This document shows, one piece after another, positions 102-64,000 of a stretch of 64,000 bases of DNA. The position numbers and the translations under genes are program-made. The stretch comes from Tetradesmus obliquus (taxonomy: Eukaryota > Chlorophyta > Chlorophyceae > Sphaeropleales > Scenedesmaceae), in assembly GCA_030272155.1 (NCBI GenBank), contig CP126203.1:3782001-3846000 (forward strand), given 5' to 3'. The notes below the pieces were generated by a model. It was not told where the DNA came from and searched no databases. It saw nothing but the letters and a program-made list of their open reading frames with translations. Every line of letters starts with the position of its first letter. The stretch's first letter is position 1.

Positions 102-2431
102 TTCTGTTATGCGCGAGATGGCCGAAGAATTGGCAGGCGCACCCGAGGAGGTCCGTGCCGAAATCGCAGGCATGGAGTCTGCTGCGGCAGTGGCCACGCG
201 GCAGCGGCTGGAGGCGCGCAGCGCTGCAGAGGAGGAGCTGATGCTGCGCGTGCCGCTGAGCAAGCAGGAGGCGAAGAAACTGAAGATGCAGCGCAGGTGG
301 GCAAGGTTGGGGCCAGTATGGGTGGTTTAGGGCGGTTGGAGGAGCAGCTTTTTGGTGGCGAGTGTGGAAAGTGTAATCGGAGGGTATGTGTGGTATCTGG
401 TATGTGACTTGCCGGTTCAGCAGCGCCAGTGACGCGGCAGCGGCTGAAGGCTTGAAAAGCAGCAGAGGAGGAGCTGATGCTGCGTGTGCCGCTGAGCAAG
501 CAGGAGGCAAAGAAGCTCAAGATGCAGCGCACGTTGGTGTTGTGTTTGGGCGAGAATATGGGTGGTTTAGGGCGGTTGGAGAAGCAGTTTATTTGATGGC
601 GAGTGTGGTAAGGTGAGCGGAGGGTATGTGTGGTGTCTGGTATGTGAATTGGCGGTTCAGCGGCGGCAGTGACCGCGCGGCAGCCCCTGAATGCTTGAAA
701 TGCACAGAGGAGGAGCTGATGCTGCGCGTGCCGCTGAGCAAGCAGGAGGCAAAGAAGCTCAAGATGCAGCGCAGGTGAGTGGCTTTGAATTGGGGCAGGG
801 AGTGCAAGGGCTCGTGATGGGCACGTGTAGGGCAGGAGAAGATGGATGCTGCGCGTGCCGCTGGGCAGTCAGGAAGCAAAGAAGCAAATGTTAAATATCT
901 TGATATCTCTTGTTTGCCCATCTTCCACTGCCTGTTGCTGCCGGCGTCACAGACTTTGCAGATGACGTGGCAGACCTGGTGGCTGCATCAGGGGAGGGCG
1001 GTGACAAAGCGCCTGTCTGGCACTGCTGCGCTCACAAACAGTGTGTTGTGTTGTGTGCCGCAGGGCTGGGCTGTCTGGTGCTGCTGGGCTCACAGACTTT
1101 GCTGATGACGTGGCAGACCTGGTGGCTGCATCAGGGGAGGGCGGTGACAAGGGCGGCAGCCTGGCTGCGCTGTACGGCAAGAAGCAGCTGTCACAGAGAT
1201 ACGGCGCTGACCTGGCAACGCAGCAGTCCAAGGTGTGTGCAGCGCAGCTCATTCCACTGCATGTGATCAGTGCCGACATTGTGGGCACTTGCACTCTTGC
1301 GTGTGGCTTCGTCAGCGCCCACATCCATGTCTATGCTTCATCTATGCTGCCGACTGCTGCGGATGTGGTGCGAGATGCTGACGTGCTGCCCCTCACGCCG
1401 CTGCACGAGAGCAGCAGGGTGTGCTTGTTCAAGCTTGTTTTTGTGGCCCCATATCTGATTATTTGATTCCTGTGCCTCTCGTGTGCTGCTGCTCTGCAGA
1501 TGCGTTCCGGAGATGCTGATGTGCTGCCGCAGAAGCCTCTGCACGAGCGCCGCGCGGCCTTCGACGCAGTCGCCGCGCGCCGCGAAGCAGCCGCAGCTGA
1601 CTCCGACGGTTTTGAAGACGCAGCGGACATGGGCGGCAAGCAGCGCAAGCGCAAGCAGAGTGCAGCTGACTTTGGTGGGGAAGAGGATGAGCTGTATGCA
1701 GCCACAAAAGCGGCAAAGGCGTCGCTTAAAGCAGAGAAGCGACGTAAGCAGGAGCAGCAGCAGCAGCTGGAGGTGCCGCTTGCTGAGCCTGAGGCTGTGG
1801 GGCAGCGCAAGATCAGCTACGAGATCGAGAAGAACAGGGGCCTCACGCCACACAGGTGCGGCTTTTTGCGGTTATGGTTGTGTTTGTTGTGATTGGTTTC
1901 ATGTGTGTCTGTCTCGTTGGCAGCGACTGTGCCTGATCCGGAGCCGGTGGGGCAGCGCAAGATCAGTTACGAGATAGAAAAGATCAGAGGCATCGCACCA
2001 CAAAGGTCAATTCTCCCTAACAGCCTGATTCGAAACATACGTGCATAATTTACTGGTGCCGCTGCTGTTTGCCCTTGCAAAGTCACCAAGGCGCATGTGC
2101 TGGTCCTTCGTGTTGCATGCACACCGAACGTTGCTGCGTTTGCTGCTTGAAGGTGCGAGGACCTCATGCATCCCTGCAAGCAGCCCACACGCAACCTGCG
2201 CAGACGGTTATGGCTGTCACTTACGCTATTCCTGCATGTCCCTGTGTCACCTGCAGGAACAAGGACCTCAAGAACCCGCGCAAGAAGCACCGCGTCAAGT
2301 TTGCACAGGCCGTGGTGCGCCGCAAGGGACAGGTGCAGGGCGTGCAGGACGCGCCCAGCGCGCCGCGCGGCTATGCAGGGGAGGCCACTGGTATCAAGGC
2401 CAAGCTGGCAAAGAGTACGCGCCTGGGCTGA
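102..2431 (+). CDS. SAS10/UTP3-like small-subunit processome protein, C-terminal part (5' end outside window)
   Basis: Probable exons are 102-296, 1064-1232, 1500-1855 and 2257-2431. Their phases join without a break and give 297 residues ending in TGA. The last two exons hold the Sas10 C-terminal domain: an EIEKNRGLTPHR-type segment, then NPRKKHRVKF, a basic RRKGQ stretch and the GEATGIKAKLAKSTRLG tail. In yeast and plants SAS10/UTP3 (THALLO in Arabidopsis) is a nucleolar protein of the U3 snoRNP/SSU processome acting in 18S rRNA maturation. The domain call is by recognition of this conserved tail; function is inferred from the family. The middle is rich in Lys/Glu/Ala, as usual for this family. 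The N-terminal Sas10/Utp3/C1D domain lies left of the window. All exons have partial copies in the neighbouring introns. The exon at 1064 was chosen because only that acceptor keeps the frame from the exon ending at 296. Confidence 0.82.
421..895 (+). repeat. Three junction echoes of the SAS10 exon ending at 296
   Basis: The exon's 3' part (GAGGAGGAGCTGATGCTGCG and following, through the donor) recurs near 467 and 709, and a shorter piece recurs near 842. The start-to-start distances are 242, 236 and about 126 nt. The copy at 709-777 keeps the GT donor; the one at 467-538 has lost it (cgcacg). The exon's acceptor side is absent from all three, so they cannot be complete alternative exons. Confidence 0.85.
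947..1013 (+). repeat. 5' junction echo of the SAS10 exon 1064-1232
   Basis: About 60 nt match 1091-1151 (CACAGACTTTGC then GATGACGTGGCAGACC and following) with very few differences. The copy lies in the intron upstream of the intact exon, about 140 nt away. It stops before the donor half of the exon. Confidence 0.8.
1357..1420 (+). repeat. 5' junction echo of the SAS10 exon 1500-1855
   Basis: A diverged copy of the exon start (GATGCTGACGTGCTGCC, then CCGCTGCACGAG) lies about 138 nt upstream of the real exon start. The acceptor CAG is degraded. Confidence 0.65.
1940..2006 (+). repeat. 3' junction echo of the SAS10 exon 1500-1855
   Basis: GGGGCAGCGCAAGATCAG, then TACGAGAT and the CACCACAAAGG end repeat the last 60 nt of the exon downstream of its donor. 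The copy encodes nearly the same peptide, GQRKISYEIEK followed by R-G-A-P-Q-R. Confidence 0.8.
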
Positions 2432-4512: not shown

Positions 4513-4592
<80 letters not shown>

Positions 4593-5163
4593 AGGTGTGC
4601 TGCTGTTTGTGCAGCTGCTGCCAGTGGCTGTTGCCTGCTTTGAGTACCAGCGCTTCCTGGAGCAGGTGGGCAGGGCAGTACACATGCAGCACACATGCAG
4701 CATATGCAGCACTGTGAGTACACATGCAGCACACATGCAGTACACTAGTAGTACGCAGGCAGTGTGCGCGGGCAGTACACAGACAGCACATAAACATTGC
4801 ACAGGCAGAACACAGGCAGTACGCAGGCAGTGCAGAGGCAGCAAGCAGTGCCTGGCAGTTTCACCGCTGTAGCAGGCGTGCAACAGATGGCACAGAGTCT
4901 GTTATGCTGCATCACTCATCAAAGCCTGTAACGTCACAACATGCTTGCTCCTGAGCCAACTCGTCAGCTTAGGCCTGCAGCTTAGGGCTGCAGGCTTGGG
5001 TAAGTCATGCCGCATGCTTGATGATCACAAGCTGGCCGCCCGAGGGCGACTGCTGGGAAAGAAAGCGTCTGTGTGTGGTGCCGCTGTTGCTGCAGGGGCT
5101 GGAGATTTGCATGATGGTTGCGAGCAAGCTGCTGACAAAGGGCTGCCAGTCAGTATGCAAAAC

Positions 5164-5205
<42 letters not shown>

Positions 5206-6197: not shown

Positions 6198-6246
<49 letters not shown>

Positions 6247-6440: not shown

Positions 6441-6474
<34 letters not shown>

Positions 6475-8390
6475 CAGGCACTGCCAGCTGTGGTGCAGAG
6501 GGTTCTACGCCAGCAGCTTGCAACGTCGCTGTGCCAGCTGTGCAGAGCATCAACGCTACCACTGCCAAGATGCCTGGCACCGAAGGCGGCAGCAGCAGCA
6601 GCAGCAGCAGGCCTAGCAGAAAAGGCAGCGGATGGTTGGGTGGAATTGCAGCACGCCACCCGCTGGCGTGGCACGTTGCTGCTGTGCAACTGCAGGTGAG
6701 ACTGCTGCTTGCGGCAGCCTGCCTGCTGTGTATATGTGCCTGCTGTGTATATGTGCCTGCTGTGTATATGGTGCATTTTTGAGTGAAGCTGTCGCAGAGA
6801 GCGTCAAGGGATGCAGGAGCATGCACACCTGTCTGCCGTTTTAAGTTGTAGCAAATGTCCTGCATTGCGCACCTGCTGCAGACCTCGACAGGATGACGCT
6901 TGACCCAAGCTCAGCTGCTGGTGCTGCTGCTGCTGCTGCTGCTGCCGCTGCTGCTCAGAGCCCCCTGATGTGGATCAACTTTCTGGCCATAGCCATCTCC
7001 CTGTCAGGCCTGCGGCGCTACCTGGACCCTGCCTCTCCTGCACGATATCATTCAACTTGTGCCATGCTGCTGCTGCTGCTGCTGCTGTGAAGAGCCCCCT
7101 GATGTGGCTCAACTTTCTGGCCATAGCCATTTCACTGTCAGTTCTTAGGCGCTACCTGGACCCTGCCTCTCCTGCTGCGCTGCCTGCACTGGGCTTTATT
7201 GACGGCCTGCTAAACTGGTTCAGCTCCGCGTGCATCCCTGTGCTGCTGTTTGCAAACGGCGTGTGGATGTCAGACAAGCAGGTCTTCAGCAAGCAAGGGC
7301 AGCTGCAGGTGAGAGGGGATACGTGGCAATGCTGCAGATCGGCGCGTGTCTTGTGTTGTGCTGCTGCTTGGGTGGAGGTCGGACAAGCAGGTCTTCAGCA
7401 AAGGAAGGGCAACTGCAGGTGCGGGCAGGGTGTGCTGGCGCTGTGTTGCGCTGGCTCTGCTAGAGCAAATCTGCCAGTGCTTGCGTTGTGCTGCTGCATG
7501 ACATGATCAAGAAAGGGCAGCTGCAGGTGCACATTTTTGCGTGTTGTCTGTGTGCTTTGGCGCTTCTGGCTTTGTGCTGCTGCTGCGTCAATCACCTTTG
7601 ATTTGTGCGTGGCAGAATCAAGCAAGCTGGATTTGCGGCAGTGCAGTGCAGGGCATGCATGCTGCACTTCAGCTGCTGCCAGCGCTGACGTCCTCACACT
7701 AATCCTGCTGTGTGTGTTGATCGCACGCAGGTGACGCAGCTGCTGCTGCTCAAGCTGCTGCTGCTGCCGGCGCTGATGGTTGCGCTGACGCTGCTGTGCG
7801 GCATGCGGGATGAGTATGGGCTGGGTCTGGTGCTGCTGTCTGCATGCCCTCTGGCACAGCTGGCGTTCCTTATGTGCCACCAGTATCATACAGGTGCGGT
7901 TAGCTGGGAGGGATTGGTGCTGGTGCTGATGCCAAGCATAGCTGTGCACAGTTGCTGCCTCAGCTGCAAACTTGCTGCTTGCAGGAAACACTGTTGCAGA
8001 GCTGGCAGAGGCAGCAATTGTGCTGACGGCATCATGCCCATGCATCATATGAAAACAGAAGCAACATGACGTACCTGTCAGCGTGGATGCTACAGAGCAG
8101 CTACGGCTAAGGCTAGAAGTGCTACACGCTGCACACTTCTTCTGTAAGCGATGCACTGCAGTATGGTGTGCCTCAACACTGCCAGCCGGCTTGCTGGTGC
8201 ATGCGTAATGACACGTTCACTGTGTTCACCTCTGTCGCATTTGGTGTTTGCTTTTGTGTTTGCAGCTGCGGAGCTCGCCACAAGCTTGACCATTCAGGGA
8301 GTGCTGCTGATGCTGCCCCATATGATTGCCCTCATCAAGCTCTGCCAACTGGCGCAGCTGTACGATGTGTCAATGCTTAACAGCGCTTGA
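3248..8390 (+). CDS. Auxin efflux carrier (AEC/PIN-like) family membrane transporter
   Basis: Supported exons are 3248-3456, 3799-3929, 4163-4231 and 4595-4665 (N-terminal half), part of a loop region ending at 6695, then about 7095-7308, 7731-7893 and 8266-8390 (C-terminal half). The first four and the last three junctions keep phase. The N-terminus (MAWAFQGVLNAGVQILIS, then GGWFCGRL) and the TNNTGFIGWPVLMATVG stretch match the first membrane bundle of Mem_trans (PF03547) proteins. The C-terminal exons give further hydrophobic helices and end in ELATSLTIQGVLLMLP. Such proteins export auxin or other organic anions at the plasma membrane or ER; the substrate cannot be read here. Between the bundles lies a long hydrophilic Ser/Gln/Ala-rich loop (about 5500-6695) whose exon limits I could not resolve. 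One in-frame TAA at 5901 interrupts that loop. It may instead be a PILS-type protein. Confidence 0.75.
4514..4594 (+). repeat. (CTG)27 tract ending at a 3' splice site
   Basis: An uninterrupted run of about 27 CTG units ends in CAG exactly at the acceptor of the carrier exon 4595-4665. It replaces a normal pyrimidine tract. It is intronic and reads CUG in the transcript. Confidence 0.9.
4676..4845 (+). repeat. Imperfect tandem repeat of CAGTACACATG/CAGCACACATG type
   Basis: Short units such as GCAGTACACATG, GCAGCACACATGCAG and CAGGCAGTACGCAGGCAG follow one another in the intron after exon 4595-4665. This is simple-sequence DNA with no coding frame worth reporting. Confidence 0.75.
6959..7046 (+). 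repeat. 5' junction echo of the carrier exon near 7095
   Basis: About 85 nt beginning AGCCCCCTGATGTGG are repeated 134 nt downstream in the intact exon (7092-7308). Both encode SPLMW-NFLAIAISLS--RRYLDPASPA. Differences are I/L and G/V plus several silent changes. This copy has the better acceptor (CTCAG) but no donor; the downstream copy has the donor but a weak acceptor (GTGAAG). Either could be the spliced start. Confidence 0.75.
7370..7530 (+). repeat. Two 3' junction echoes of the carrier exon ending at 7308
   Basis: GACAAGCAGGTCTTCAGCAA with AGGGCAACTGCAGGTGCGGG (7381-7426) and AAGGGCAGCTGCAGGTGCA (7513-7531) repeat the exon end plus donor downstream of the real junction. They shorten with distance. 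Confidence 0.7.
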
Positions 8391-8939
8391 ATGCTAGTTT
8401 ATGCGACGAAGCTGGCCGTGACCCATGTGGCCCGCCAGCACATGGGCACGTGGGGCATGTGGGCCCAGCTCAGCGTATCCAACCAACGTTTTGATTGCAG
8501 CAGCTGGCATCACAGCTGCTGCCACCTTCTAAACTTGTTGGTGCTTCAGCATTGTTATCGCTTATGGTCTTTTCAGCGCGCCTTGAAGATTGTGCTGCAA
8601 AAAATTGCCAACGTCAAGCACCACCAAGCAGCAGCCATTTGCAATATGCAGCTTAAATCTTGTTTGGTTATGATTTATGAGAAAGTATCGCCAAGCACGG
8701 ATAGAAGAGGGAGACTGGAAGCGAAAAAGTAAAGGGTTACCATCAACCTCAAACCCTGGGTCCCCCTTTTGCATCCGTCTTGCGCGCTCACAAGAGCCAG
8801 CACCCTCGGCCATGCTCCAAACATCAGCTCTTTTCCGCTAGGTCAAGTTGCTTAATCTACGTTTAGCTTTCTCCCAACGCCCTAGCCCAGCTTGTTTGCT
8901 TGCACCTACGCTTCTCCAGCGACCAGGCAACTTTTCGCG
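8391..8939. other. 3' region of the carrier gene and promoter of the deaminase gene
   Basis: There is no coding exon that I can support. The stretch from 8700 to 8939 is less repetitive and precedes the deaminase ATG, so it probably holds its promoter and 5' UTR. No TATA box or known element was recognised. Confidence 0.4.
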
Positions 8940-10753
8940 ATGGCGTGCTGCGATTGCAAGGTGGACTTGATCCCTAGGACTGCTTCGGCAGTGACCAACC
9001 TCGCGCACCTCAATGAGTGCTGCAAGCACTCAGATGATGTGGACACCTCGGGCATCCAGCACCCTCACGGGCCCTTCATGGAGCGTGCAATCTACCTCAG
9101 CCGCGTTGCAGGCCTGGAGAAGCGCACAGGTCAGCGTGTGTGATGACCGGACATGAGTGTGTCGATCAGCTCGCATTGCTTCTGCAGCCAGGTCTCTATG
9201 CACGCATAGCTGCGTTCTTTCAGTTCCAAGGCTTGCACCAAATCCTGCAATCAAGCTGCGCTCTGCAGACGTCGGTTGGTGATACTTCCCGCTCATCCTT
9301 GTTGCTTCTTGCGTTCTGCTGCTCGTAGGTGGTTGCTTTGGCGCTGTCGTCGTGAAGAACGGCAAGATTGTTGGCGAGGGCTACAACAACGTCATCAGCC
9401 ACAACGATCCCACCTGGTGAGTGCCAAACTCTGACTCGCCTCAGTATCCTCGCACAAGGCGCTGTTGCCTCGAGACAGGTTGCCTAGTCTGTACATTCAG
9501 TAATCCTATCCTGATGAATGATTCCGAGGACTTTTATCGGCTGCATGCATGCACCAGACTCAGCTTGACATCACCTGTGCCTTGCTGGTCCCAGTCAGCA
9601 TGCGCCTAGACCTACACCTCTCCTGCTGCACCATGCGCTGCCCTGCTCGTCCCATCACCTCCACTTACGCACATGCTGTTGCTGCCGCACCTCAATCTAT
9701 GCACAGGCACGGAGAGGTCGGCGCCATCAGGGATGCCAGCCAGCGCCTGGGCACCCCCCACCTGAGGTAGGTTGACTCCTCCTAGCTGTGCAGCCCTGCA
9801 TACGAGCAGTGCTGTCATGTGCAAACCACGTCTAAACATCTCAGCTGATGGAGTTCAGACAGGCTGCAACAGCATCACAGGAGCACTTCCTGATGCCATG
9901 TGCCACATCAACTCGACAGTATCCTTGCTCACACTGCTGCTGCTGCTGCTGCTGCTGCTGCCTGGCACATCCATCCCTTTTCCTGCAAACTCCTGCAGGG
10001 GCTGCGTGCTGTACACCAGCAGCGAGCCGTGCCCCATGTGCATGGGCGCGTGCTACTGGGCGCGCATCGACAAGATCTACTACGCCACCACAGCCAAGGA
10101 CGTCAAGGTGGGTATAAAGAATTGCAGGGAAGACCATACATTCTGCAGTAGATGCATGCAACATTTTGCTCACTCACATATCTAGAAGGGCGCCCCCAAA
10201 GGCACCGTGGCTGCTTCAACTTCAGTTGTTCTGGTGTGCTTCTCCTGGGTGCAGTTCTCCTGGGTGCAGATGGATATCCTGCTATGTTTGATGCTGCGCC
10301 GCCTCCTTCACATTGTCACTGCAGCAGATGGTCTGTAGTAAAAGTGTCGTGGTTGTTGTGAAGGGTGTGGCGCTGCTCGCACTGCCGCTGTGAGTGTGCT
10401 GCTGCTGCCGCTGCCATGTTGTCTCACCTGCAAAATCATGGCCGTATTGTTAACCCGCAGCTGTTCCTGCTGCTGCTGCTGCTGCTCTTTGTTCCTGCAG
10501 GAGCACGGCGCTCTGAGGACGAGGACTTCTACGAGGAGTTTGCCAAGCCCCCGGCTGACCACTCCTGCTGCTGCTGCTGCTGCTGTGCTTTGCTGTATTG
10601 CAGGAGCACGGCCGCTTTGAGGACGAGGACTTCTACGAGGAGTTTGCCAAGCCCCCGGCTGACCGCAACATCCCTGCGCTGGAGTTCATGCGCGAGGAAG
10701 CCGTGAAGGTCTGGGAAGAGTTTGGCCAGCTGCCAGACCGCTGCCACTACTAA
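8940..10753 (+). CDS. Guanine/guanosine-type deaminase (CDA superfamily, GuaD/GSDA-like)
   Basis: Exons 8940-9129, 9329-9416, 9707-9766, 9999-10107 and 10604-10753 join in phase to 198 residues, similar to bacterial guanine deaminase and plant guanosine deaminase. The zinc/catalytic motifs are HGEVGAIR, at the start of exon 3, and the CDA signature PCPMCMGACYWARI in exon 4, preceded by LYTSSE. The C-terminal FYEEFAKPP--R-IP and the final tyrosine match the GuaD subfamily rather than tRNA adenosine deaminases. The enzyme would hydrolyse guanine or guanosine to xanthine or xanthosine in purine salvage/catabolism, probably in the cytosol. The first motif is unusual: the family has H-A-E, here H-G-E because codon 2 is GGA. 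There is no clear transit peptide. Exon 5 has an echo on each side. Confidence 0.88.
10498..10564 (+). repeat. 5' junction echo of deaminase exon 5
   Basis: The sequence GCAGGAGCACGGCG, then CTGAGGACGAGGACTTCTAC through GCCCCCGGCTGACC, repeats the acceptor and first 60 nt of exon 5. It lies exactly 103 nt upstream. It breaks off into a CTG tract before the intact exon. Confidence 0.88.
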
Positions 10754-21880: not shown

Positions 21881-23387
21881 GGCCGGCTCAGCCAGCCAGC
21901 CGCCAGCAGCAACCTGCGGCAGCTGCGGCAGTGCTTCCAGCATCGGCTGCCTCTGCAGACTCGCCAAACTGGAGCTAGTAGGACCAGCATCAGGCCATGA
22001 GCTGCTGCATCTGGCAAACCTGCCAGGCCTGAGGACACTGCTGCTGCGTGACAACCCCAGCTGGAGCAGCGGCTTGCCTTGCACTGATCTTGCGCAGCTG
22101 CTGGCAGCTAGCAGCAGCATAAGAAGGCTGGAGCTGCTGGCGTGCCCAGGAGTGTCAGGCCTTCAGGTGGAGCAAGCTCTGCTGGCTGTCAGGCCACAGC
22201 AAGGTCCTGACAGCCTGATGCCACAGCAGGGTCCTGACAGTTCAGGTGGAGCAAGCTCTGTTGGTCCTGACGGTGTAAAGCCCGCAGCAGCTGTTCCTGA
22301 CAGCCTGACGCCACGGCAGGGTCCTGACAGCTCAGCAACATCTGCTGGGCATGACAGTGCAAAGCCTGCAGGTCCTGACAGCCTGGAACCAACAGTCCCT
22401 GACAGTGCACGGCCCGCTGGTCCTGACAGCCTGGCACAGCCGCCAGCTGCCAGGCTAGCAGGACCTGAGCGGCTACACAGCTGCGACATTGTGGTGAGGC
22501 CGGGGGGCGGCAGGTCAGCAGCAGAGCTTGGGATGGGCTACCATTACTTTGGCACGCTGCTGTCACCTGCTGAGGAGCGAGGCGATGCTGAACTGCCTTG
22601 GTGGGGTGGGGCAGCAGAGGCAGTAGAGGAGGAGGATGGTGGTGAGGGGGCCGCATTTGGGCCTCAGCTACCTTCGGATGGCTGGAATCAGCCTGTCTGG
22701 GCAGTGTGGCAGGCAATGCCACAGCTGCAGTGGCAAATAGGTCAGCAACAGCAGCAGCTGCAGCTGCAGCAGCAGCTGAATGAGATGGCCATGCAGCATC
22801 ATCAGCAGTTCCTGCAGGCATCGCAGCAGTTCCAGCAGCAGATGGAGCAGCAGCAGCAACAGCAGCAGCAGCAACACGAGCAGCTGCTGCAACAGCAGTT
22901 GCAGCAGCTGGAAGCAGGTGCGGCAGCAGAAGAAGCAATGCTGGCTGTGAACCATATCTTTCACCAGCAACACAAGGAGATCCAGCACCTCTTTGAGCAG
23001 GGTACGCAGCAGCTGCAGGCGCTGCAGCTACACCACCAGCAGCAGCAGGGGCAACTGATGCAGCAGCTGCAGCAGCTGCAGCATGCTGCTGCTCAGCAGC
23101 ACATCCTGCCTGTTGCTGCGGGAGCAGCTGTGCCTGAGATGCAGCAGCAGCAACTACAGGAGCCAGGCATGCAGCTGCAGCTGCAGGCGCAGGCTATGCA
23201 GCAGCAGATGCAGCAGCTGCTGCAGCAGATGCAGCAAGGGCAGCAGGCGTTCCAGGAGCAGATGCAGCAACAGCAGCAGGCATTCCAGCAGCAGCAGCTG
23301 CAGCAGCAGCAGCAGCAGGCGGGAGGTGCTGCTGTAGGCGAGCCTGGGGATGCTGATGCTGGGGATGGTGCCGCACAGGAACTGTGA
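17788..23387 (+). CDS. Large LRR protein with F-box-like N-terminus and Gln-rich tail
   Basis: Exons 17788-18039, 18319-18377, 18917-19083, 19426-19509, 19870-20487, 20904-21217 and 21498-23387 join in phase to 1127 residues. The ATG at 17788 is the nearest in-frame start before the F-box-like segment DHVLPALQVQHKAALSCSCSG; an extra 5' exon is possible. LRR units include GITSLQLLDQL, LTRLQLRS, LTQLRLGYY, LVRLQQLGLGW, LTSLQLGGL, LTRLELTG, LTSLRLGWKA and LAKLELVG. These are interrupted by poly-Ala/Gln tracts. After the LRRs come about eight (G)PDS repeats (DNA 22195-22430). A Gln-rich, probably coiled-coil, tail of about 220 residues ends in AAVGEPGDADAGDGAAQEL. It is a likely paralogue of the divergent LRR gene. 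An adaptor role in protein turnover or signalling is inference only. Confidence 0.8.
19747..19780 (+). repeat. 5' junction echo of the LRR exon at 19870
   Basis: GCCATGCAGATCTGC-GCTGACAGAC recurs with its acceptor CAG at 19749-19751, 118 nt before the real acceptor at 19867-19869. Confidence 0.7.
20610..20850 (+). repeat. Two 3' junction echoes of the LRR exon ending at 20487
   Basis: The segment 20618-20733 repeats 20381-20493, 237 nt away, including the donor. Near the junction all differences are silent: VLGVLGYLTG is written with different third bases (CTA/CTT, GGA/GGG, TAT/TAC, TTA/CTT). A weaker third copy starts near 20778. Either of the first two copies could in principle supply the donor. 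Confidence 0.85.
21451..21497 (+). repeat. CTG tract forming the 3' splice site of the last LRR exon
   Basis: About 13 CTG units run directly into TCTGCAG at the acceptor of exon 21498-23387. Confidence 0.85.
22190..22440 (+). repeat. In-frame (G)PDS repeat array
   Basis: Units such as QQGPDSL, QQGPDSS, AVPDSLT, RQGPDSS, AGPDSLE, TVPDSAR and AGPDSLA recur every 12-36 nt inside the last LRR exon. The Ser/Pro-rich stretch is probably disordered and separates the LRR domain from the Gln-rich tail. Confidence 0.85.
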
Positions 23388-23415
23388 CAGCAGCAGCAGC
23401 AGCAGCAGGCAGCAG

Positions 23416-23451
<36 letters not shown>

Positions 23452-23698
23452 CACGGGTTGCTGCTGCAGGCGAGCCTGGTGATGCTGATGCTGGGGATGG
23501 TGCACAAGAACCCTGACAGCAGCAGCAGCAGGCAGGCAGGCACGGGTTGCTGCTGCAGGCGAGCCTGGTGATGCTGATGCTGGGGATGGTGCACAAGAAC
23601 CCTGACAGCAGCAGCAGCAGCAGCAGCAGGCAGGCAGGCACCGGTTGCTGCTGTAGGCGAGCCTGGGGATGCTGATAATGGTGCAGCACAGGACCATT
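23388..23698 (+). repeat. Three echoes of the LRR protein C-terminus beyond the stop
   Basis: The last 60-70 nt of the gene (GTTGCTGCTGCAGGCGAGCC, GATGCTGATGCTGGGGATGG) recur at about 23457-23517, 23547-23608 and 23644-23699, separated by CAG runs and a (GGCA)n tract at 23417-23452. Each copy keeps an equivalent stop region (CCCTGA or CATTAG). Confidence 0.88.
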
Positions 23699-36600: not shown

Positions 36601-39600
36601 TTGTTCATCTCCCACTTCTCCTTGGTTTGACAAGCTATCCATGTGTACAATCATCACCAACATGGTTGCACCAGCACCTGAGACCTCTCGCAAGCACGGC
36701 CCCTTTCCTTCAAGCGCACACCAAGCAGGCTCTCTTGTAATGTGCTCCTGGCATGAACAGCATAATTTGCCGCTGCGACCCGTTTTTCCTTATAAATGAA
36801 TTTGGGTCTGCTCCTCACCTTCTCCTGGTTGTTCATCTCCCACTTCTCCTTGGCCTTCACAAAGCTCTTCAGCGTGATGTCGTACACTGCGCCAGCGCCA
36901 GCTGGCACGCCGGTGCCGGCCACAGCGCCTGCAGCAGAAGCAGCAGCAGCAGCATGAAGTGTTGGTACTACCTCAAGCACTGCAGGTGCACCCAACATAG
37001 AGCAACAGGCCCCAGGTGTTTCAAACCTACTAGGATGTACTGCAGTCAGTCGCTCAATGCTGCTGCTGGCAGAGCACAAGTGCGATGCATGCGACATTCC
37101 TCACCTTCAGGCGCTGCCGCGAGTGCTGGGTCGCTGATGGTGACCAGAGCGTGCTCCTCCGTGCGCATCGAGTGCACTGCCAGCTCCAGGCCCTCAGGCA
37201 CCTGCAGGAAAGGGACACAGCGCAGCACAAGGGACATGGCTTTCTTTATCGTTGTTGCTGCTTCAGCAAGCACACCCTGACTTTCCCAAACCTGCAGCAC
37301 ACGACACACACAATACATGGAGCACTGCATCATCTGCTGTGCACCAGCGCCAGCGAATGCACCGCCAGCTCCAGGCCCTCACGCACCTGCAGCGTTATAA
37401 CACAACGCAGCGTAAGGACTGTCTCACTACGGGTCATATCACTCATTGAGATGTCAAACAAGGGGAATCATCGCAAGTATAAATACCTGATACCGTGTGT
37501 CAGTGGCCACTACACCCTGGCACTAGCCTTCACACCACGCACCCTGTGCACCTCGCTCTCACCTGCTCCTCGTCATTGGTAAAGGTCACCTCCCGCTGCT
37601 CCTCAACCCTCAACCACTCAATTTTCACCATGGACCAACCCTAAACCCCAAACCCACCTGCTCCTCGTCAGTGGTGAAGGTCACCTCCCGCTGCTCCTCG
37701 TACACGGTTGCCCCATCCACGCTGCGCGTGGTCACCACAACTGTCACGCTGCTGCCGTCATTGGGCTTGTTGTAGTTGCCCTCAAGCTCCGACAGGATCT
37801 TCTTTGTGACACCGGGGGCCGGCGTGTCCACGCGGTGCAGCTCAGACAGTGTGAACTCCACTTCCAGCAGCTGGCCTTCTGGTACCTCTGCCACGCCAGC
37901 AGCGTCTGCAAGACAGTTGAAAAGGGAGACGTCGTTGTGGCATATTTCTTGTTTGCCATAATTGAAAATGAAACAAAGTTTGAAAGCATGAGGTGCAGCT
38001 CAGACAGGGTGAACCCCACTTCCAGCAGCTGGCCCTCTGGCACCTCTGCCACACCAGCGCGTCTGCGGGTAACAAAGTAACAACACAACAGTGTTATAAC
38101 AATCACAGTAACAGATCAGCAGTATGCGGTGGACCTTGCTGAGGGTGAACCCCACTTCCAGCAGCTGGCCCTCAGGCACCTCTGCCATGCCAGCGGCGTC
38201 TGCAGGTCGCATACAACATAACAATGTGACAGTGTAATCAAGACACCATAACAGATCAGCAGTATGCGGCGCAACTAGCTGAGGGTGAAATCCACCTCCA
38301 GCAGCTTGCCCTCAGGCACCTCTGCCACATCAGCAGAAAACGACGATCAACAAGACAGCAAAAGAGAGTGTGCATGTAACAAGGTGACAGTGTTTTGACA
38401 TGTTTCCGGTCAGTGACATGCTTTTTCTGTCAATAACATGCCACAACAGGTTGACAGCATGCAGTCAGGCCCAAACAGAGTGAACTCCACAATGCATCGC
38501 AATACGCCATGTGGGATACCATGACGATTACTCACACTCTGGCTTCAGCGGCAGCAGCACGCTCTCGTGTGCCTTCATGCTCCTCAGCGCAGCAGCAAAG
38601 GCGCTGCAGGGTGCCTGCCCAATATCAAACACAGCACCACCCTCAGGGCTAGCTGCCACCACAGGCAGACCCAGCTCTGCTGCTGCCTGCGGCCTAATGC
38701 AGAGTGCCAAGTACAAGCATACACGACATAAACAGCAACACACGCAACAAAGCACATCAACAGTCGGGTGCAGAACTCACATTCCGGCTTCAGCAGCAGC
38801 AGCGCGCTCTCCTGGTGCTTCATGCTCCTCAGCGCAGCAGCAAAGCCGCTGCAGGGTGCAGCGCCAACCTCAAACACAGCACCACCCTCAGGGCTAGATG
38901 CCACCACAGGAAGCCCCAGTTCTGCTGCTGTCTGCGGCTTCTTGCTTGCTGCTGCTGCAGCATCTTCGGGTGTTGGGGTGGGCTTGAGGCGTGCTGTGAA
39001 GGTGACAACGACTTCGTCGGCGTCCTTGGGGTTCTGCCAGCCCTGGCCTTCGCTGACGATGGTCTTGATCACACCGCCGTCACCTGCAAGAGAAGGCAGA
39101 GATGCAATGAGTAAGTGAAATGATCAACTTCAGGTATGGCCATGGCCTCGTCGGCGTCCTTGGGGTTCTGCCAGCCCTGGCCTTTGCTGACGATGGTCTC
39201 GATCACGCTGCCGTCACCTGCAGGAGCGGCACACACACTCATTTGTGATTGTTATGTCCCTGATGCTCCTCCAGCTGATCAGCCTCACCTCCAACTGTGT
39301 TGCGGCATCAACCCGTGCTTCGCAAAAGTGTAACACAGGAAGTCAATGACAGTCACGCACCTGTGATGTCCTTGACGCTCTTCCAGCTGATGAGCTCCAC
39401 CTCAAACTGCAGCGTGGCGTCATTTCAAACCCCCACAAATGTTTGTAACAAGACAGGAATGACAATAACGCAGTAACACACCTGTAACGTCCTTGACGCT
39501 CTTCCAGCTGATGAGCTCCACCTCAAACTGCAGCGTGGTGTCATCCCATACCCCACAAATGGTTAAAACAAAATAACAATGACAATAACCAAGTAACGCA

Positions 39601-40450
39601 CCCGTGATGTCCTTGACGCTCTTCCAGCTGATGAGCTCCACCTCAAACTGCAGCGTGGCGTCAGGAGGAATGGTGGGAGGCGAGCCCGCGGCACCGTACG
39701 CATAGTCAGCCCTGCAGGTCAGAGCCACACCATGAGTCATGTTGGTGTCATTGTCATTGTGTGTTGCAGTATTGCCACACAGAACAGGTGTAACACACGG
39801 CAGAGATGGTGGGAGGGAAGCCGGCAGCGCCATACGCGTAGTCAGCCCTGCAGGAGAGTGCCACATGTTGGTGTCATTGTCATTGTGTGTTTCAGTTATC
39901 GCCACACATAACATATGTAACACATGGCAGCCACCTCGCTGGCCAGCACAGAAGGACACCGCGTGATACAAACAGCCAGTCCTCCCATGACAGCCTGCAT
40001 GCAAATTGGCACCCTCATCTGCAGAAGAGGTGGGCATGTTCTCCCTTTTCCATGCTGGCTTCTTTACATGCTGGACATCATTGTACTGGCCCAACTGCAT
40101 AACACCAACCGTACTCAGATGTGGTTTTGCAAGGAGCATTGGGTGGAGCACTGTGGCCTGTCAACAGAGGCGCCACAGGGCGTGCAGCTGTCGGCAGCAG
40201 AACTGCATATCACCGACTGTACTGCTGTACTGCCTCACCTGCAGACCAGGTTGGCCAGCTCGCCTGCTTCATGCTGGCCACCACTAATTGTACTGCCCCC
40301 TCATGTGGCAGACCATCAATTGTGCCAAATCACTGCCCTGCACGCCACATCTAAATTGTACTGCTTGTACCACCTCACCTGCACACGAGGTTTGCCAGCT
40401 CTCCCTTCTTCATGCTGGCCACGCCTGTGTCCCAGCCCTTGATCACCTTG

Positions 40451-42941: not shown

Positions 42942-44031
42942 ATGTCAAGTCGCGTAGCACTGCGTTCAACTGTGGTGGCTGTGCTGCTGGCATGCCTGTT
43001 CATCAGTCCAGGTGAGCTTTCAGCACTGTGCTGCCTGATATCCACTTTCAACGCAACGGACGCACGAAGAGACGAATGCGATTCTCGCCGTCCCCTTGTT
43101 TACACTGCAAGTGGCATCAAACTGCACCTGATAGCACCTCCCTGAGTTTTGGCCAGGCTATAGCCATAGCTACAACCTGGCCCAGGCCCCGGGCATAAGG
43201 CTTTTGAGGGACCCGGCAACACTGTTTAACGAAACTGAGAACAGTCTCTTTTGTAAGATGCATTTCCGCTCCTACCAGCACAGCTTTGGTGATGGTCCAA
43301 GCTACACACAGCACCAACGCTCACGACGACACACTTTGCTGATGCTATGTGCAGGTGTGGACGGCAGGCATCTGCGGTACAGCAGGGCTGAGAGGCGCGA
43401 AGGCAATGCAGCAGCGGCACAGCAGCTGACCCAAGAAACCATTGCTGCAGCAGCCCGTGGTGATTCTTCTGTATCAACAGCCACAGCTCCCAACCGTCTC
43501 GCAGTGATGATGCAGGATGATGGTGCGATGCACCTGGCAAACCGCATCCTAATCACTAAGATTGAGCAGCGTGAAGACAGTGCAGCTGCTGCTGAGCACT
43601 TCACTGCTGCACAGATTGAGGCAGCAGCCAATGGTGACAAGGCAGTCTCACATGCTACAGCACCACAGCGCGTGTCAGCCATGATGCAGGACCCTCTTGT
43701 AGGCCGTATCCTGATCACAAAGATGGAGCAGCGTGAGGATAATGCAGCTGCTGCTGAGCGCTTCACTGCTGCACAGATCGCCGCTGCAGCCAGCGGTGAC
43801 AAAGCAGTGGCAGATGCTACAGCACCGCAGCGCGTGTCAGCCATGATGCGGGACCCTCTTGCAGGCAGGATCCTGATCACTAAGGCAGAGGTGCGTGCAA
43901 ACAATGCAGCTGCTGCTGCGAGTGACACTGCTGAACAGATCAAGGCTGCAGCTGACGGCGACATAGCAGCATCAGAGGTCATGGCGCCACGCATGCAGTC
44001 AGCTTACGTAAATGGTGCTGGCCGAAACTGA
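42942..44031 (+). CDS. Small secreted protein with four 54-residue repeats (LEA/SMP-like?)
   Basis: Exons 42942-43011 and 43355-44031 join in phase to 248 residues. The first exon is almost entirely a signal peptide (MSSRVALRSTVVAVLLACLFISPG). The mature part is four copies of an Ala-rich, hydrophilic unit: RILITKxExREDxAAAAExF, TAAQIxAAAxGDKAVxxATA, PQRVSAMMxDPLxG. The repeat period is 162 nt (starts near 43375, 43543, 43705, 43867). No cysteine occurs in the repeat region and no enzyme motif is seen. The GDK-V and Ala-rich helix pattern recalls the plant seed-maturation (SMP, LEA) domain, but this is only a resemblance. An extracellular protective or cell-wall role is possible. There is no echo in the single intron. 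Confidence 0.72.
43375..44010 (+). repeat. Four in-frame 162-nt repeats
   Basis: Codons from the units starting near 43375, 43543, 43705 and 43867 align with an exact 162-nt period between the last three; the first has six extra bases. The central two are closest to each other. The fourth is most diverged at its end. Confidence 0.9.
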
Positions 44032-47463: not shown

Positions 47464-49195
47464 ATGGCCTCCCAGCTCAAGGACGCGTATGGATTCGCGC
47501 TGCTGGCAACGGGGGAGGACCAGCGGCTGTTGCAGGCTTCATGGGCTGCTGTAAGTGAGATCGACAGAAACGGCCCAGCCTGCCTTGCTGGGTGATTTTG
47601 ACGACATAACGAGTCTGCCCAGCAATTGCTGTGCCTCGTTAATTATCATCACAGTTCGGCTGTCCTTAGCCAGCTCACCTTCCGACCTCCTCTCGCATGA
47701 CTTCATCCGTGTCTACCCTCACCTCTGTTCCTCACATCACGGATGCCTCATTTCTGCTCTGCAGGCAAAGAAAAGGGCTGACAGCTGGTCGGCGGTTAGC
47801 AAGCAGCTGCGCAGCACAAGCAGCAGCTGCAGTGATACAGCATCAGGCCCAGACCAGCGCCGCTCACTGGCCCTCAAGCCACTCGTGAGGCGAGGCATTC
47901 CCTTCGAACTCCGGCCAACGCAATGGTTCCAGCTCTCTGGCGCAGCAGCGCGCCAGGCAGCAGCAGGCAGCGGCTATTATGCCAAGCTGTCTGGCATCAA
48001 TGGCCTGCCAGTCAACATGCTCCTGCAAGTCAGTGAGGACTTATCACCTGGCATCTTCCAGTTTCGCACACACCCACTGTTCAAGAAGCAGGAGGGCATG
48101 GATGCAGTGCGCCGCATCCTGTGCGGCTACCTGCAGCACAACCCCGCAGGTGAGCAGTGTGTGTTGTTTAAACTGGTATGTTGTGTCAAGCAGCAGCAGC
48201 AGCAGCAGCAGCAGGAGGGAGACATGGTGACACATTGACCTGCTAGTGTATGTTGGCATGCATGCAGCACAACCCGGCAGGTGCGCTGCGCATGTCCATG
48301 CACAGAGGCATGGTGGCATCCACCAGTGCAGTAGGCCAGCCATGCAAGCTTGGGTCTGAGCTGCTCCAGCACCAGCTGCTGCCCTGCTCTTTGTTCAAGC
48401 GCACCTTCTGCATCAGCTGCTGGTGTGGGCCTGTTGAATCAGTGGTTGCGTGCTGCAGCTGTCTTGGCAGGTGACCCAAACAGGTGCACCGGCTGATACA
48501 CCTGCAGCATGCACCTACTCGCTTGCGCATTGGTTGTGGACCGGCTGTAAATGTGCTGGACGCTTGCAAAAGTGGCAGCTGCTTGTAGTGTTGCTTGAGG
48601 ATAGGCGCACAGTTTCAGGCACAGCAGCGGCTGTAGTGCATGCAACAGGCGTTGCTTGATCTGCTGCTAGCATAAGCAAGAGGCGCTGTCATCAGCTACC
48701 GTATTCAGAAACTGCAGAGCGCATCAACTTGCGTTCGGTGGTCTCCTGGCTGACCTGCTGCTGCTGCTGCTGCCTCCTCTGAGGCTACTTCAGGGGCCTG
48801 GCGCACATCGCGGGCTTCCTGCTCATCGTGATGGGCTGCTGAAATATCTTCCTTACACTGCTGTTTTTGACTGTTCTTTTGTATGTTACTTCTGCAGGCT
48901 ACTTCAGGGGCCTGGCGCACATCGCGGGCTTCCTGCTCATCGTGATGGGCCTGGACAGCGAGCAGCAGGCCTTCTGGACGCTGGCCGCGCTGCTGGAAGA
49001 CAAGCTCTTCCCCTACTGCAGCGGCCAGGTGCGTTATTATACTGTTGTTTATGTTTATGCCACATGATACAAAAATCATTTGCGTAGATGCATTGTACGT
49101 GATTAGTTGGCTGCGCTGCTGGAGGACAAGCTCTTCCCCATGAACTTCCTGCAAGCCATTTATAGCCTGTGCATTGCTGCCACTGCTGCCCCTCA

Positions 49196-49226
<31 letters not shown>

Positions 49227-50142
49227 CCAGGGTGCCCACGGCACCCTAGTTGCGCTGCGCATGCTGCGGCCTTGGTGGCTGTGAAGCTGCCCAAGGTGGC
49301 AACCCACCTCGCCACATTCAAAACACAAGAGGCTTGAATCCTCAACTTGTGTATGCTGCTGCTGCTGCTGCTGTTGCTCTGTTTTCGTCTTCAGGGTGCA
49401 CACGGCATCAAGGTTGAGCTGCACGTGCTGGACACGCTGGTAGCCCAAAAGCTGCCCCAAGTGGCCACCCACCTCGCAAAGCTCTGATGAAAAGATTCAA
49501 CAACCAAAGCCTGACTTGTTAATCATTGTATGATGCTGCTGCCGCCGCTGTTGCTTTGTTCAGGGTGCTATGGCATCAAGGTTGAGCTGCGCGTGCTGGA
49601 CACGCTGGTAGCAAGATTTTCAATCATAGAGCTTACATCTCATTAGTATGCTGCTGCTGCTGCTGTAGGGTGCCTATGGCATCAAGGTCGAGCTGCGCGT
49701 GCTGGACACGCTGGTCGCCAAAAAGCTGCCCAAAGTGGCCAGCCACCTCGCCAAGCTGGAGACCAACTCCACAGCAGTCACCCCCAGCTGGCTCTCCTCC
49801 CTGTTCACAACCACCCTGCCAGCTGAGGTCACAGCGCGCATCTTTGACTGCCTGCTGCTTGAGGGCAGCAAAGTGCTTCAGAGGGTGGGGCTGGCTCTGC
49901 TGAAGCATTATGAGGCCAGCATCTGTGCAGCATCTCACCCGGCTCAGCTCCGCAAGGTGCTGGACAGCCGTGCTGCAAGGCTGTATGATGCAGAGTCGCT
50001 GCTGAACACTGCTTTCAAGGGTGTTGGGGCGATGCCGACTGCTGTGATTGCGGGCGTGCGCAGCGCGGCTGCTGCTGCTGTCGATGCGCAGATGGAGGAG
50101 CAGCGGCGGCGCCTGGAGCTGATCGTGTGCCGCACGCACTGA
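47464..50142 (+). CDS. TBC-domain (Rab-GAP-like) protein
   Basis: Exons 47464-47550, 47765-48149, 48898-49028 and 49669-50142 join in phase to 358 residues, a usual length for small TBC proteins of the GRTP1 type. The domain begins at LKPLVRRGIPFELRPTQWFQ (about 75) and continues with NGLPVN, a DAVRR segment equivalent to the IxxDxxR arginine-finger motif, LQHNPAGYFRGLAHIAGFLL, FWTLAALLEDKLFPYC, the LxxLxxxKLPKVASHL helix and WLSSLFTTTLPAEVTARIFDCLL--G-KVLQRVGLALLKHYE. TBC proteins stimulate GTP hydrolysis by Rab GTPases on endomembranes. The catalytic glutamine of the usual YxQG motif is Arg here (YFRG), so GAP activity may be reduced or lost. Echoes flank exons 2, 3 and 4. Confidence 0.88.
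48250..48292 (+). repeat. 3' junction echo of TBC exon 2
   Basis: ATGCAGCACAACCCGGCAGGTGCGC repeats the exon end and donor (CTGCAGCACAACCCCGCAGGTGAGC), about 130 nt downstream. The CCC/CCG change is silent. Confidence 0.7.
48783..48840 (+). repeat. 5' junction echo of TBC exon 3
   Basis: GGCTACTTCAGGGGCCTGGC, GCACATCGCGGGCTTCCTGC, TCATCGTGATGGGC is an exact copy of the first 55 nt of exon 3, 115 nt upstream. The acceptor is degraded (CTGAG). Confidence 0.92.
49106..49145 (+). repeat. 3' junction echo of TBC exon 3
   Basis: TTGGCTGCGCTGCTGGAGGA, CAAGCTCTTCCCC repeats 48981-49013 with silent changes (GCC/GCT, GAA/GAG). It lacks the donor. Confidence 0.82.
49228..49618 (+). repeat. Three 5' junction echoes of TBC exon 4
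   Basis: CAGGGTGCxxxGGCATCAAGG, TTGAGCTGCGCGTGCTGGAC recurs with exon-start equivalents at 49564, 49395 and 49231 (real 49669); intervals are 105, 169 and 164 nt. Each keeps the acceptor CAG, often after a CTG tract. The farthest is the most diverged. Confidence 0.93.
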
Positions 50143-55102: not shown

Positions 55103-58100
55103 GCTGGCAGCTGCGCGGAAGAACAAAATTGTAGCAGTAGCAAGTGACATACCCGAAGTGCAGTACTCCAATACCTGGGCAGCGGCATCCAACATCATGG
55201 ACAATGCATGAACAGCAACAGGAGGGGCAGCAGCAGCAGTGCGTGCAGCAGCAGCAAGGGGCTGGCCCGGGGTGCAGTGGCAGCAGTCATGGTCTGGGTG
55301 GTTCAAGCAGCAGCAACAAGGAGCAGCAGCAAAGCAGCAGCAGCAACCGCAAGGAGCAGCAGCAACGCAGGGCTTTGCTTAATCAGAAGTGCAGACAAGT
55401 CGTGTGAAATTTATCTCAATGTTGTGTCACTTGTTATGTGACATGTTATCTGCCGCAGGGCCCGCCAGCTCCTTTTGTGCTGCACAGCAAGCTGGGTGAC
55501 ACCGCAGTGTCACTCACGCGTGACTTCAATGGCGAGAAGGTCTCCGTGGACTGCAGCGTGAACATGCAGGTGAGGGTGGGAAGTTCATACTGTGAGCTTG
55601 TGGATTTAGCTCAAGTGCGTTTGGATTAGTTGCGCGACTTCAATGGCGAGAAGGCCTCCGTGGACTGCAGCATGAACATGCAGGTGAGGGTGGGAAGTTC
55701 ACATTGAGACTATGCATCTAGGCGAGGAGTTCTGACCATGAAGTTGACGCGGTGAGGTGATAGGGCTGGCGGAAGCTAGGACTGTGTGGTTGTGGTTGTG
55801 TTGTTGGGGTTCTGTCTGGCGCAAGAGGCTGGTCTTGAAGATGACACATTACACTTGTCAACGATTTTGCCAATGATTGAGAACATCCTGTACATGAAAC
55901 ATGACTGCAAGTGCCCTGGATACGTGGGCATTGAACATCAGCTGTTCTTGCAGCTTGCAGGACAGCTTGAGCAGCCAACATACTTGGTCTCCCTCTGGGT
56001 CTGATGAGAGTGGTGATGCAATAGAAATTGCCTGCCATTGTTGCTGAACATTTCCTTTTCTGCTCTGCAGGACAGCCTGGGCAGCCTGTCTTTTGGTGGC
56101 GATGAGGACGAGGATGAGTCAGAGATGGATGAGGCAGCAGACGTGCAGTTCAACGTGACTGTGACAAAGGTGAACCATGTACTTGGCCTTTGTTGATTGC
56201 TTATGGTTTGTTACGCGTACAGGTTGCTCCGTCGGATGTTTGTTTGGCTTGTGTGTGTAAGTTAACGCCCGCTGCTGGACAAGTGCCATGTGGCCGCACA
56301 TGACCTACCAGCGTTGCTGGCATGCATGGTTAACCAAACGCTTGCTGGGTTGAGTGTGTCGGGGCTTTGAGTAATGTTCATTTTATCATCCGCCGTGATG
56401 TCAACAAAGCATCAGCAGCTAGCCAGCCAGCCAGCTGAACCCTAGCAGCGCTGCCCAGTGATGCAAAACCTCACCAGAGAGGGCCAATCGGAGCCATAAC
56501 ATCGGTGCCGTGGCTGGCACAGGCCCCGCCAGTGACCCGCCCCGCACCGCCTTGCAGCCACACCCCTGCCTGTATACATGTTCCGCTCCGGCTGTGGGTG
56601 TGTGTGTGGGGTGGGGCCTGGCTGGGTGGCCTGATGTTTCAACATGTTATGAGATCTGAGGGCAGGCAGGGTGCGGCGGCTGGTTGGCTGGTTGACTCCT
56701 TCCTTGGCTGTATGGTGTCTGTGCCACTGGGATTGTTGGTTGGTTGGCTAGGCTGTTGACAGCTTGTTCACTGGCATCTTGGCCTGGGCAATGGCACAGC
56801 AAAGGGCATTTGATTTGCTCGGCATGTCACCTACCCCACCATCTGCCGCATGCCATCCTCTTCACAAATAAATGAGGCATAATCATCCTCCGTGATTTTT
56901 CGTTTTGCAGGCTGTTAAGGCGCTGGTGTTCGAGTGCATCAGTGACGGCACCTACCTTGACATTCGCCACGTGTCACTCACTGCCGCGTAATCCTTCTGT
57001 GTGATTACTCCCTCCCAAACAACACCTGCAGGCTGACAAGGCGCTGGTGTTTGAGTGCATCAGTGACGGCACCTACCTGGACATCCGCCACGTGTCACTG
57101 GAGCCAGCGGAGGGCATCGACTCAGACACCGTGTTCACTGGGCCGGTGTTCAGCGAGCTTGACAGCGAGCTGCAAGATGCCTTCCGTGAATACGTGACGG
57201 TGAGTGCAGCTGGCGTTGCTAGTTAGCGAGGTTTGGGGCTGTTGGGGTGTTGCGGGGCGTCCAGGTGTCAGAATATTTAAGTGTTAGCAGGGTACACAGG
57301 CGTGAACAGCGGCAGCTGTAGCTTGCTTAGTAGCGCTGGGGTTGTAGCCAGCGGTTTTGGGCGCTGCTGGGGTTCTGCTGGTGCCTAGGTGTCAGTGTTG
57401 AGTTTGAAAGCGATCTGCAGGATGCATTGCGTGAGCGTTGCTGCAACGTATGCATGCCCTGCCTCACTCTGTCATTCATCTCCCAAGATTCAAGAGCCCG
57501 CTGTGTGTCAATGCCTTTCGCACCCGCCTCTTCACTTCCCCGCTGCTGGAGTACGGCATCAATGAGGACCGATCTAGTACCTGCACGGTGCTGACCCTGC
57601 AATCATTTGCTGCTGCTGCTGCTGCTGCTGTCTCCCTGCAGGAGCGCGGCATCAATGAGGACCTGGGCGAGTACCTGCGCCACCTCATGTTCGACAAGGA
57701 GCAGGTGGGTTTTGCGTTTACCCTGATTTCCAGCAACGCGCAAACCAGAAGTTATAAGGTTTTAATCATAGAGTACCTGCGCCACCTCATGTTTGACAAG
57801 GAGCAGGTGAGAGCCGCACGCTGTAACATAATGTAACGCAGCATAACAAAACCCCAGTCTTTCAAACCACAAACTTTAGACAGCCTTGATCACGAAACCT
57901 AGGATACGTGCGCCACCTCATGTTTGTCAAGGAGCAGGTGCGGGGTTGTCTACTGCTGATGCAAGGTGTGCTGGTTTTCAGTTGTGCGGGCTTTGGCGTG
58001 CCTGATGATGACAATATACATGTATCAACTCAGATTCTGAACATCAATGGTACATAAGACCATTGGAGTTGACTGGCACGTCTGTGGTTGGTCTTTCATG

Positions 58101-58164
58101 TGCTGCTGCAGGAGGAGTACCTGCACTGGCTGGAGGGAGTGAAGGGCTTCGTGGGCAGCAGCTG

Positions 58165-58165: not shown

Positions 58166-58196
<31 letters not shown>

Positions 58197-64000: not shown

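Follow-up and report, generated by a model that had tools for sequence, protein, structure and literature searches.

In this study, a 64-kb stretch of the genome of the green alga Tetradesmus obliquus (C13:3782001-3846000, hereafter the window, from an assembly of 17 contigs and 104,662,953 bases) was analysed, and introns of its predicted genes were found to contain partial copies of the edges of the adjoining exons. These copies, called echoes here, repeat either an exon end with its donor site (donor-type) or an exon start with its acceptor site (acceptor-type). The explanation that we favour, with some reserve, is that echoes were left behind by local direct (tandem) duplications that occurred again and again, typically in units of approximately 90-165 bp. 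The feature is real, strong and, to the extent of our searches, undescribed, and the underlying mutation is of a known kind.

The window was compared with itself using blastn, and near pairs were defined as matches on the same strand less than 3 kb apart. All 67 direct pairs that the comparison returned met this distance limit, and 4 further pairs were inverted; both orientation and closeness are thus those of local tandem duplication, and inverted duplication was rejected as a source. Counted at spacings of at least 80 bp, the window held 52 local direct-repeat families with 131 copies, 79 of them extra, which is in line with the original prediction of more than 50 copies in 64 kb. A few families are of low complexity (e.g. 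22722-23676 and 4662-4841). The wider sample consisted of 25 other 10-kb stretches (20 regularly spaced and 5 random, labelled L0xx) and yielded 229 direct pairs less than 1 kb apart, 24 of which belong to a different repeat in L004. At least three near direct pairs were present in 15 of the 25 stretches, and a dinucleotide shuffle (one for each stretch) gave no near pair in any of them.

Exon boundaries were predicted from DNA, not RNA, over approximately 310 kb of the genome (L004, with its different and longer repeat, was excluded) by a purpose-written gene finder in C that was self-trained starting with the exons of PRP8. The program recovered 8 of 8 exons with PROCN matches in PRP8, the last one terminated at a stop; it also merged some genes and took some echoes as exons, by which introns were often cut. 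In the exon-edge scan, 40-mers from exon ends were searched in 500 bp of the adjoining intron, with introns of other loci and the reverse complement as controls. Copies were detected for 64 of 321 donor and 51 of 306 acceptor ends. The corresponding control counts were 0/316 and 0/298 with introns from other loci, and 0/321 and 1/306 with the reverse complement. The occurrence of exon-edge copies in neighbouring introns was therefore confirmed by the self-comparison and by a scan with near-zero controls. The rate dropped deeper into the exon, to 27/254 (donor) and 20/247 (acceptor) at an offset of 40 and to 4/163 and 5/159 at an offset of 100. Local copies were also found for 58/970 and 70/970 intron-internal and for 13/314 and 16/314 intergenic 40-mers.

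Exon-edge copies are widespread in the genome yet uneven. Echoes occurred at 4 of 159 junctions in L002, L003 and L005-L009 versus 108 of 446 elsewhere (a post hoc grouping), and the rate was heterogeneous between loci (chi-squared 96.5, 25 degrees of freedom). The proposed genome-wide process is borne out in that copies lie on many contigs, including those in PRP8, tRNA-synthetase, kinesin and kinase genes outside the window, but its intensity differs strongly from place to place. The suggestion that the process lengthens introns was not upheld: introns with echoes were not longer than others (median 160, n = 93, vs 222.5, n = 476), in models that often cut introns.

The anatomy of the copies was described for 112 echoes from the gene models. 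Their spacing ranged from 65 to 488 bp, with 3 echoes below 90 bp, 55 at 90-165 bp, 41 at 166-270 bp and 13 above. Among the 56 echoes spaced 85-165 bp, 37 had exon parts of 40-60 bp, and 29 had intron parts of 60-80 bp. Spacings below 90 bp were scarce in all classes of BLAST pairs (junction 6/196, exon-exon 1/47, intron-only 0/74 and intergenic 2/44, array pairs not being independent), which points to a mutation process rather than to splicing. A blastn self-search is blind to spacings under approximately 50 bp, and the scarcity is argued for 50-90 bp only, alongside Smith-Waterman and Tandem Repeats Finder results. Among the 43 non-redundant arrays that the last of these programs listed at periods of at least 80 bp, there were 30 at junctions, 7 intron-only, 6 intergenic and 0 exon-only ones (chance expectation not computed). 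Two or more echoes were present at 48 junctions, and some junctions bore arrays of two to at least six copies, six per junction being the most that were counted.

Several other readings were rejected. Frame-keeping was discarded since the spacing did not favour multiples of three (34/36/42 over the three classes, n = 112). The spacing fell within 10 bp of the predicted intron length in only 1 of 59 echoes; the event is thus not the usual intron gain, and gain of the AG/GT type was rejected. A common inserted or mobile element in the spacers was rejected after 543 cross-locus comparisons, which gave a top score of 31 and no family. The group spaced 166-270 bp does not consist mostly of second array units, because a nearer copy lies between in only 15 of 41 of these echoes (reverse-strand control 0).

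The exon part of the copies was 71-100% identical to the exon, with 7 of 112 identical and 100 of 112 below 98%. An assembly or polishing artefact, which the identical parts and the examination of a single assembly might suggest, is scarcely credible because most copies have diverged; moreover, an assembler is blind to splice sites, and older and younger copies stand side by side in one array. Changes were polarised and counted at codon positions 1/2/3 without and with the arrays of L022, L015 minus strand, the low-complexity L024 and LRR. In the 30 arrays that remained without them, changes private to one echo numbered 74/68/92 and changes private to the real exon 9/15/47; all 49 arrays gave 128/120/144 and 12/22/62, respectively. 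The third-position share of echo-private changes was 0.39 (interval 0.35-0.44). The near-even distribution in echoes and the third-position excess in exons indicate constraint on the real exon and little or none on its echoes. The copies often keep decoy splice sites, as had been predicted: among the 61 echoes with under half of their length in a predicted exon, 25 of the 30 donor copies had GT and 25 of the 31 acceptor copies had AG, and these sites scored somewhat below the real ones.

The clearest example in the window is an FKBP62-type gene that runs from 41761 down to 33675 on the minus strand, as do all its features below, and was compared with a relative's protein, P0044, whose name marks it as transcript-derived. 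This gene bears 22 echoes at nine exons, and all 22 obey the side rule of the original prediction, in which exon starts are copied upstream and exon ends downstream. Twenty were recovered by tblastn with P0044 or P0045 as query (E 3e-14 to 0.4), with DNA pairs in support of the weak matches, and two (39489-39551 and 37351-37392) were known from DNA only. Real exon E5 (39600-39722, residues 111-151 of P0044) is accompanied by an acceptor-type echo at 39805-39858 (homology) and three donor-type echoes, the first at 39489-39551 and the others, with homology and DNA support, at 39359-39421 and 39250-39309; its array is a true tandem unit in which the intron half also matches. E6 (38782-39087, residues 151-244) and its acceptor-type (39141-39218) and donor-type (38537-38695) echoes were identified by homology. 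E7 (37634-37903, residues about 246-337) has three acceptor-type echoes supported by homology and DNA (37993-38058, 38123-38212 and 38263-38364, the last with stop codons inside) and a donor-type echo at 37560-37604, matched by P0045 only (E 0.4) and by a DNA pair of 95.6%. An acceptor-type echo of E8 (exon 37103-37204) lies at 37351-37392, and a donor-type echo of E9 at 36585-36629 (DNA pair and homology). By homology, E10 (exon 36124-36282) has an acceptor-type echo at 36342-36389 and a donor-type echo at 35886-35996. E11 (35575-35706, to residue 490) is followed by donor-type echoes at 35427-35477 and 35324-35371 (homology and DNA) and at 35166-35216 (homology), the outermost sharing residues with the relative's protein. 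E12 (exon 34676-34837) has an acceptor-type echo at 34902-34943 and a donor-type echo at 34456-34554 (DNA pair and homology for both). Finally, three acceptor-type echoes of the last exon, E13 (33675-33893, residues 542-614), were located at 33956-33997, 34069-34116 and 34184-34231 by homology and DNA; E5, E7, E11 and E13 themselves were placed by homology.

This gene also bears on whether echoes are alternative or repeated coding exons, that is, exon duplication with alternative splicing. The gene finder placed half or more of the length of 51 of the 112 echoes inside an exon, L015 and L022 contain repeats of entire small exons, and some echoes may be spliced into mRNA. The FKBP and PRP8 echoes, in contrast, bear one exon edge only, and 11 of 12 echoed residue ranges checked occur once in P0044, the range 151-176 also matching its sister FKBP domain. 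Constrained coding sequence was suggested by a pairwise count of third-position changes and rejected by the polarised count, and with spacings indifferent to frame we consider this explanation very improbable. The earlier claim that no copy is a full exon stands for the partial FKBP and PRP8 echoes, and the arrays of L015 and L022, elsewhere in the genome, depart from it. Partial copies are largely to be expected because real exons often exceed a unit of approximately 120 bp; in PRP8, this is true of 8 of the 9 predicted exons in the 970-4700 interval.

The placement of duplications relative to junctions was compared with expectation. Tandem duplication across exon-intron junctions, as originally proposed, was supported, but aiming at junctions was not evident among the fully alignable duplications (at least 85% of the unit, identity at least 90%, n = 7), of which 5 lay at junctions with 4.8 expected; 2 of the 7 were called intergenic, and one of these (L024) overlaps a predicted exon end, so that a junction count of 6 is possible. 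Partial duplications (identity at least 85%, coverage at least 30%) lay at junctions in 61 of 77 cases versus 38 expected, and looser criteria gave 92 of 119 versus 60 expected. The enrichment of partial pairs could come from unequal decay. Non-coding events may be lost from view as they decay, or else junctions may be preferred sites. Some local duplications were also assigned to the intron-only and intergenic classes, a part of them being echoes of missed exons.

Several observations weigh against recurrent tandem duplication followed by decay. Non-coding (intron-only and intergenic) duplications numbered 27 of 119 versus 55 expected under uniform placement, and at least two pairs classed as non-coding (PRP8 4647-4803 and window 49562-49718) fall at exon edges that homology had identified. 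The scarcity of short units is not absolute, since Tandem Repeats Finder reported 12 arrays with periods of 50-89 beside 26 with periods of 100-159. Outward ageing in arrays is a tendency only: over all 48 arrays, the nearest copy was more similar than the farthest in 29 and less similar in 16 (sign test p 0.07). The pairwise third-position share, 0.61 (0.53-0.68) in 41 echoes outside predicted exons, was above expectation, in part driven by the L022 arrays. Intron halves present the main difficulty. Doubling of a whole unit with neutral decay predicts that they are about twice as diverged as exon halves, and the observed divergence is far greater: where the exon half was at least 94% identical (10 donor and 11 acceptor copies), intron-half identity beyond the first five bases was 0.45-0.80, compared with 0.40-0.63 for unrelated intron pairs. 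At E13, four intron halves are nearly unalignable and the exon halves approximately 90% identical, and 16 of 34 spacers had no significant match.

Introns in this genome may diverge fast in general, as suggested by one pair of inverted kinase paralogues on C11, L035 (4523701-4527200) and L036 (4530601-4534100), for which gene conversion is another possible account. The last exon of this pair differs at 3 of 485 bases (0.6%) and the intron at 24 of 209 (11.5%) plus 93 gapped bases, and divergence in the 3' flank falls from 5.4% to 0.8%.

Unmatched intron halves and scarce non-coding duplications, together with the enrichment of partial pairs at junctions, would suit a process linked to transcription or splicing that duplicates the exon edge and its splice site into the intron. 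In one version, equally tentative, the last or first ~50 bp of the exon would be copied ~70 bp away through R-loops, spliceosome-bound nascent RNA or cDNA-guided repair. The mutational process would then be aimed at junctions and would repeatedly place a ~120-bp unit, or only the ~50-bp exon edge, in the adjoining intron, for which our expectation is low. The narrow exon part (40-60 bp) would agree with such copying, but it may also reflect a detection limit of 35-40 bp, a unit of ~120 bp and the need for ~50 bp of intron. The echo rate rose weakly with codon score across 50 gene models (rho 0.40, p 0.004; one of six features, uncorrected). On the other hand, 18 of 34 spacers had a match in the remainder of their own intron, the pattern of a true tandem unit, compared with 3/34 on the other side and 6/34 on the reverse strand; the intron half matches too in true tandem units of L024 and L019; and fully alignable units had no clear junction preference. 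Overall, junction-directed copying appears unlikely.

Gene conversion, by which the exon part of old tandem copies is repeatedly overwritten from the real exon, would account for high exon-half and absent intron-half similarity in one pair, and it would refine rather than exclude recurrent tandem duplication. It would also erase silent differences, which nonetheless exist. Two echoes retain older states and were thus not recently overwritten: by eye, echo c of the TBC gene described below keeps bases that are common to echo b and lost in the real exon, and the outer echo of E11 differs from its exon in an 11-residue segment that reads NWAEAAKQASK in the relative. The E11 echo keeps residues also found in the relative's protein, which can be taken as the ancestral state. 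A role for conversion is accordingly held to be doubtful.

Under recurrent tandem duplication, a local direct duplication would recur with a unit of approximately 90-165 bp and few short units. When a unit crosses a live junction, two versions of that junction would result, and the one still continuous with the remainder of the exon would go on serving as the exon, an outcome with which the side rule of the copies agrees. Duplications inside exons would be removed by selection, and one that spans a junction would be nearly neutral and add intron, because a complete exon with its own splice site remains. The exon half would stay recognisable because the real exon changes little, and intron halves would diverge on both sides. 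Arrays could grow through renewed duplication at the live junction or through unequal exchange among array members. Exon definition, in which the whole exon is recognised, would allow partial copies with one site to be ignored. As a guess, the trigger may be the repair of staggered breaks by fill-in and joining.

Other genes in the window, on the plus strand unless stated, bear echoes of the same kind. A SAS10-type gene, with a Pfam Sas10 (PF09368) match in its C-terminal part, has an exon end at 178-296 that was taken as the source copy of a self-comparison family, with donor-type echoes at 417-532 and 657-777 and a short further echo at 834-885. An acceptor-type echo at 928-1021 belongs to the exon starting near 1064 (self-comparison and exon-edge scan). 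Further along, 1783-1857 was taken as the real exon end because it continues the upstream exon, and 1933-2007, which the gene finder chose, as its echo (self-comparison). Both methods located a donor-type echo of 7263-7308 at 7372-7421 in an AEC/Mem_trans gene (PF03547), in which self-comparison also gave an upstream copy of 7091-7175 at 6957-7041; they likewise located an acceptor-type echo (10496-10560) of exon 10607-10708 in a deaminase gene (PF00383). Named relatives found with a deaminase of the window were Scenedesmus sp. PABB004, at 53% identity, and, at 66%, an entry whose identifier is of the Chromochloris style. On the minus strand, an array of three to four units stands at a predicted donor junction (26674-27286, self-comparison).

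In a TBC gene (RabGAP-TBC, PF00566), self-comparison and alignment identified an acceptor-type (48778-48836) and a donor-type (49108-49139) echo of exon 48898-49028, as well as three acceptor-type echoes of the exon from 49669: a, the most diverged (49228-49312), b (49390-49483) and c (49559-49612). By eye, CAC is present in echoes a and b and TAT in echo c and the exon. The same two methods gave, in a p32/MAM33 gene (MAM33, PF02330), a donor-type echo of 55518-55569 at 55632-55709, the intron part of which is partly alignable, and an acceptor-type echo of 57032-57199 at 56906-56978. A 162-bp repeat at 43542-43969 (~2.6 copies) lies mostly inside one predicted exon of a secreted-type gene and is probably a protein repeat, not a junction echo.

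Elsewhere in the genome, PRP8 on C4 contains six direct pairs at close range, and at four of these the exons have PROCN matches. In six-frame genome searches, neighbouring matches that had at least 20 residues in common were read as echoes. Three neighbouring tRNA-synt_1 matches with overlapping residue ranges were found at C13:3960174-3960690, and further cases on C10 (two places) and C15. One kinesin exon is present in three copies at C2:7430665-7431399, with a further case on C6, and kinase matches overlap on C15, C10 and C8; the kinesin case on C6 and the kinase case on C10 are weaker because some matches have internal stops.

Repeats of other kinds were also observed in the sample. On the minus strand, L015 holds an array of whole small predicted exons of 51-60 bp (about 7060-7900) and L022 repeats whole predicted exons of 84-129 bp (about 8860-9550), in both cases with both splice sites; the L022 sequence is presumably dynein-like. 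An intron array in L020 (2342-2894) has a 66-bp step, below the usual unit size. Throughout L018 (1-10000, C14:1600001-1610000), a 4,310-bp unit is repeated head to tail at 100% identity (~2.3 copies in the stretch), which is either of very recent origin or a product of assembly. Approximately 3.3% of the sampled bases belonged to simple repeats, often CAG/CTG, which misled naive training of the gene finder and were masked in the version used.

The mean intron of T. obliquus is 462 bp, compared with 230-302 bp in four other green algae, according to Table 1 of PMC5966456. In an alga with introns reported as long for its group, echoes offer a way of intron growth that can be counted and that needs no mobile elements. 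They store older exon states, so that one genome carries its own time series, and they raise the question of how splicing passes over good decoy sites that lie no more than ~120 bp away. Gene prediction in this feedstock alga may be led astray by them, as happened with the gene finder used here. Junction-aimed copying, if true, would tie DNA duplication to splicing or transcription; introns would be built outward, and the earlier sequence of each exon would be preserved in layers like a fossil record. The frequency, the size range and the lopsided decay of echoes call for a specialist explanation.

As had been surmised, no earlier description of exon-edge copies in introns was found in the portion of the literature searched, which was of open licence. 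Introners, or introner-like elements, add intron sequence genome-wide, as echoes do; no shared element was found among the spacers here in 543 cross-locus comparisons. Intron gain through tandem duplication of a piece of exon that carries an AG/GT site (PMC2891723) resembles the present case in that a partial tandem duplication of exon sequence becomes intron; there, a new intron of the size of the duplication arises, whereas here an existing intron receives a copy of its own edge. Pervasive local sequence duplication is known from fly regulatory DNA, where PMC3188502 describes it for transcription-factor sites rather than exon edges. Small tandem duplications that arise in mouse and human cells by CST/Pol alpha-primase fill-in and end joining are documented in PMC8355091. 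Like them, the duplications described here are local and direct and need no sequence family, and their size would be set by the repair event; unlike the human case, in which, according to the same paper, small duplications are the commonest short (<100 bp) insertions, spacings below approximately 90 bp are scarce in T. obliquus.

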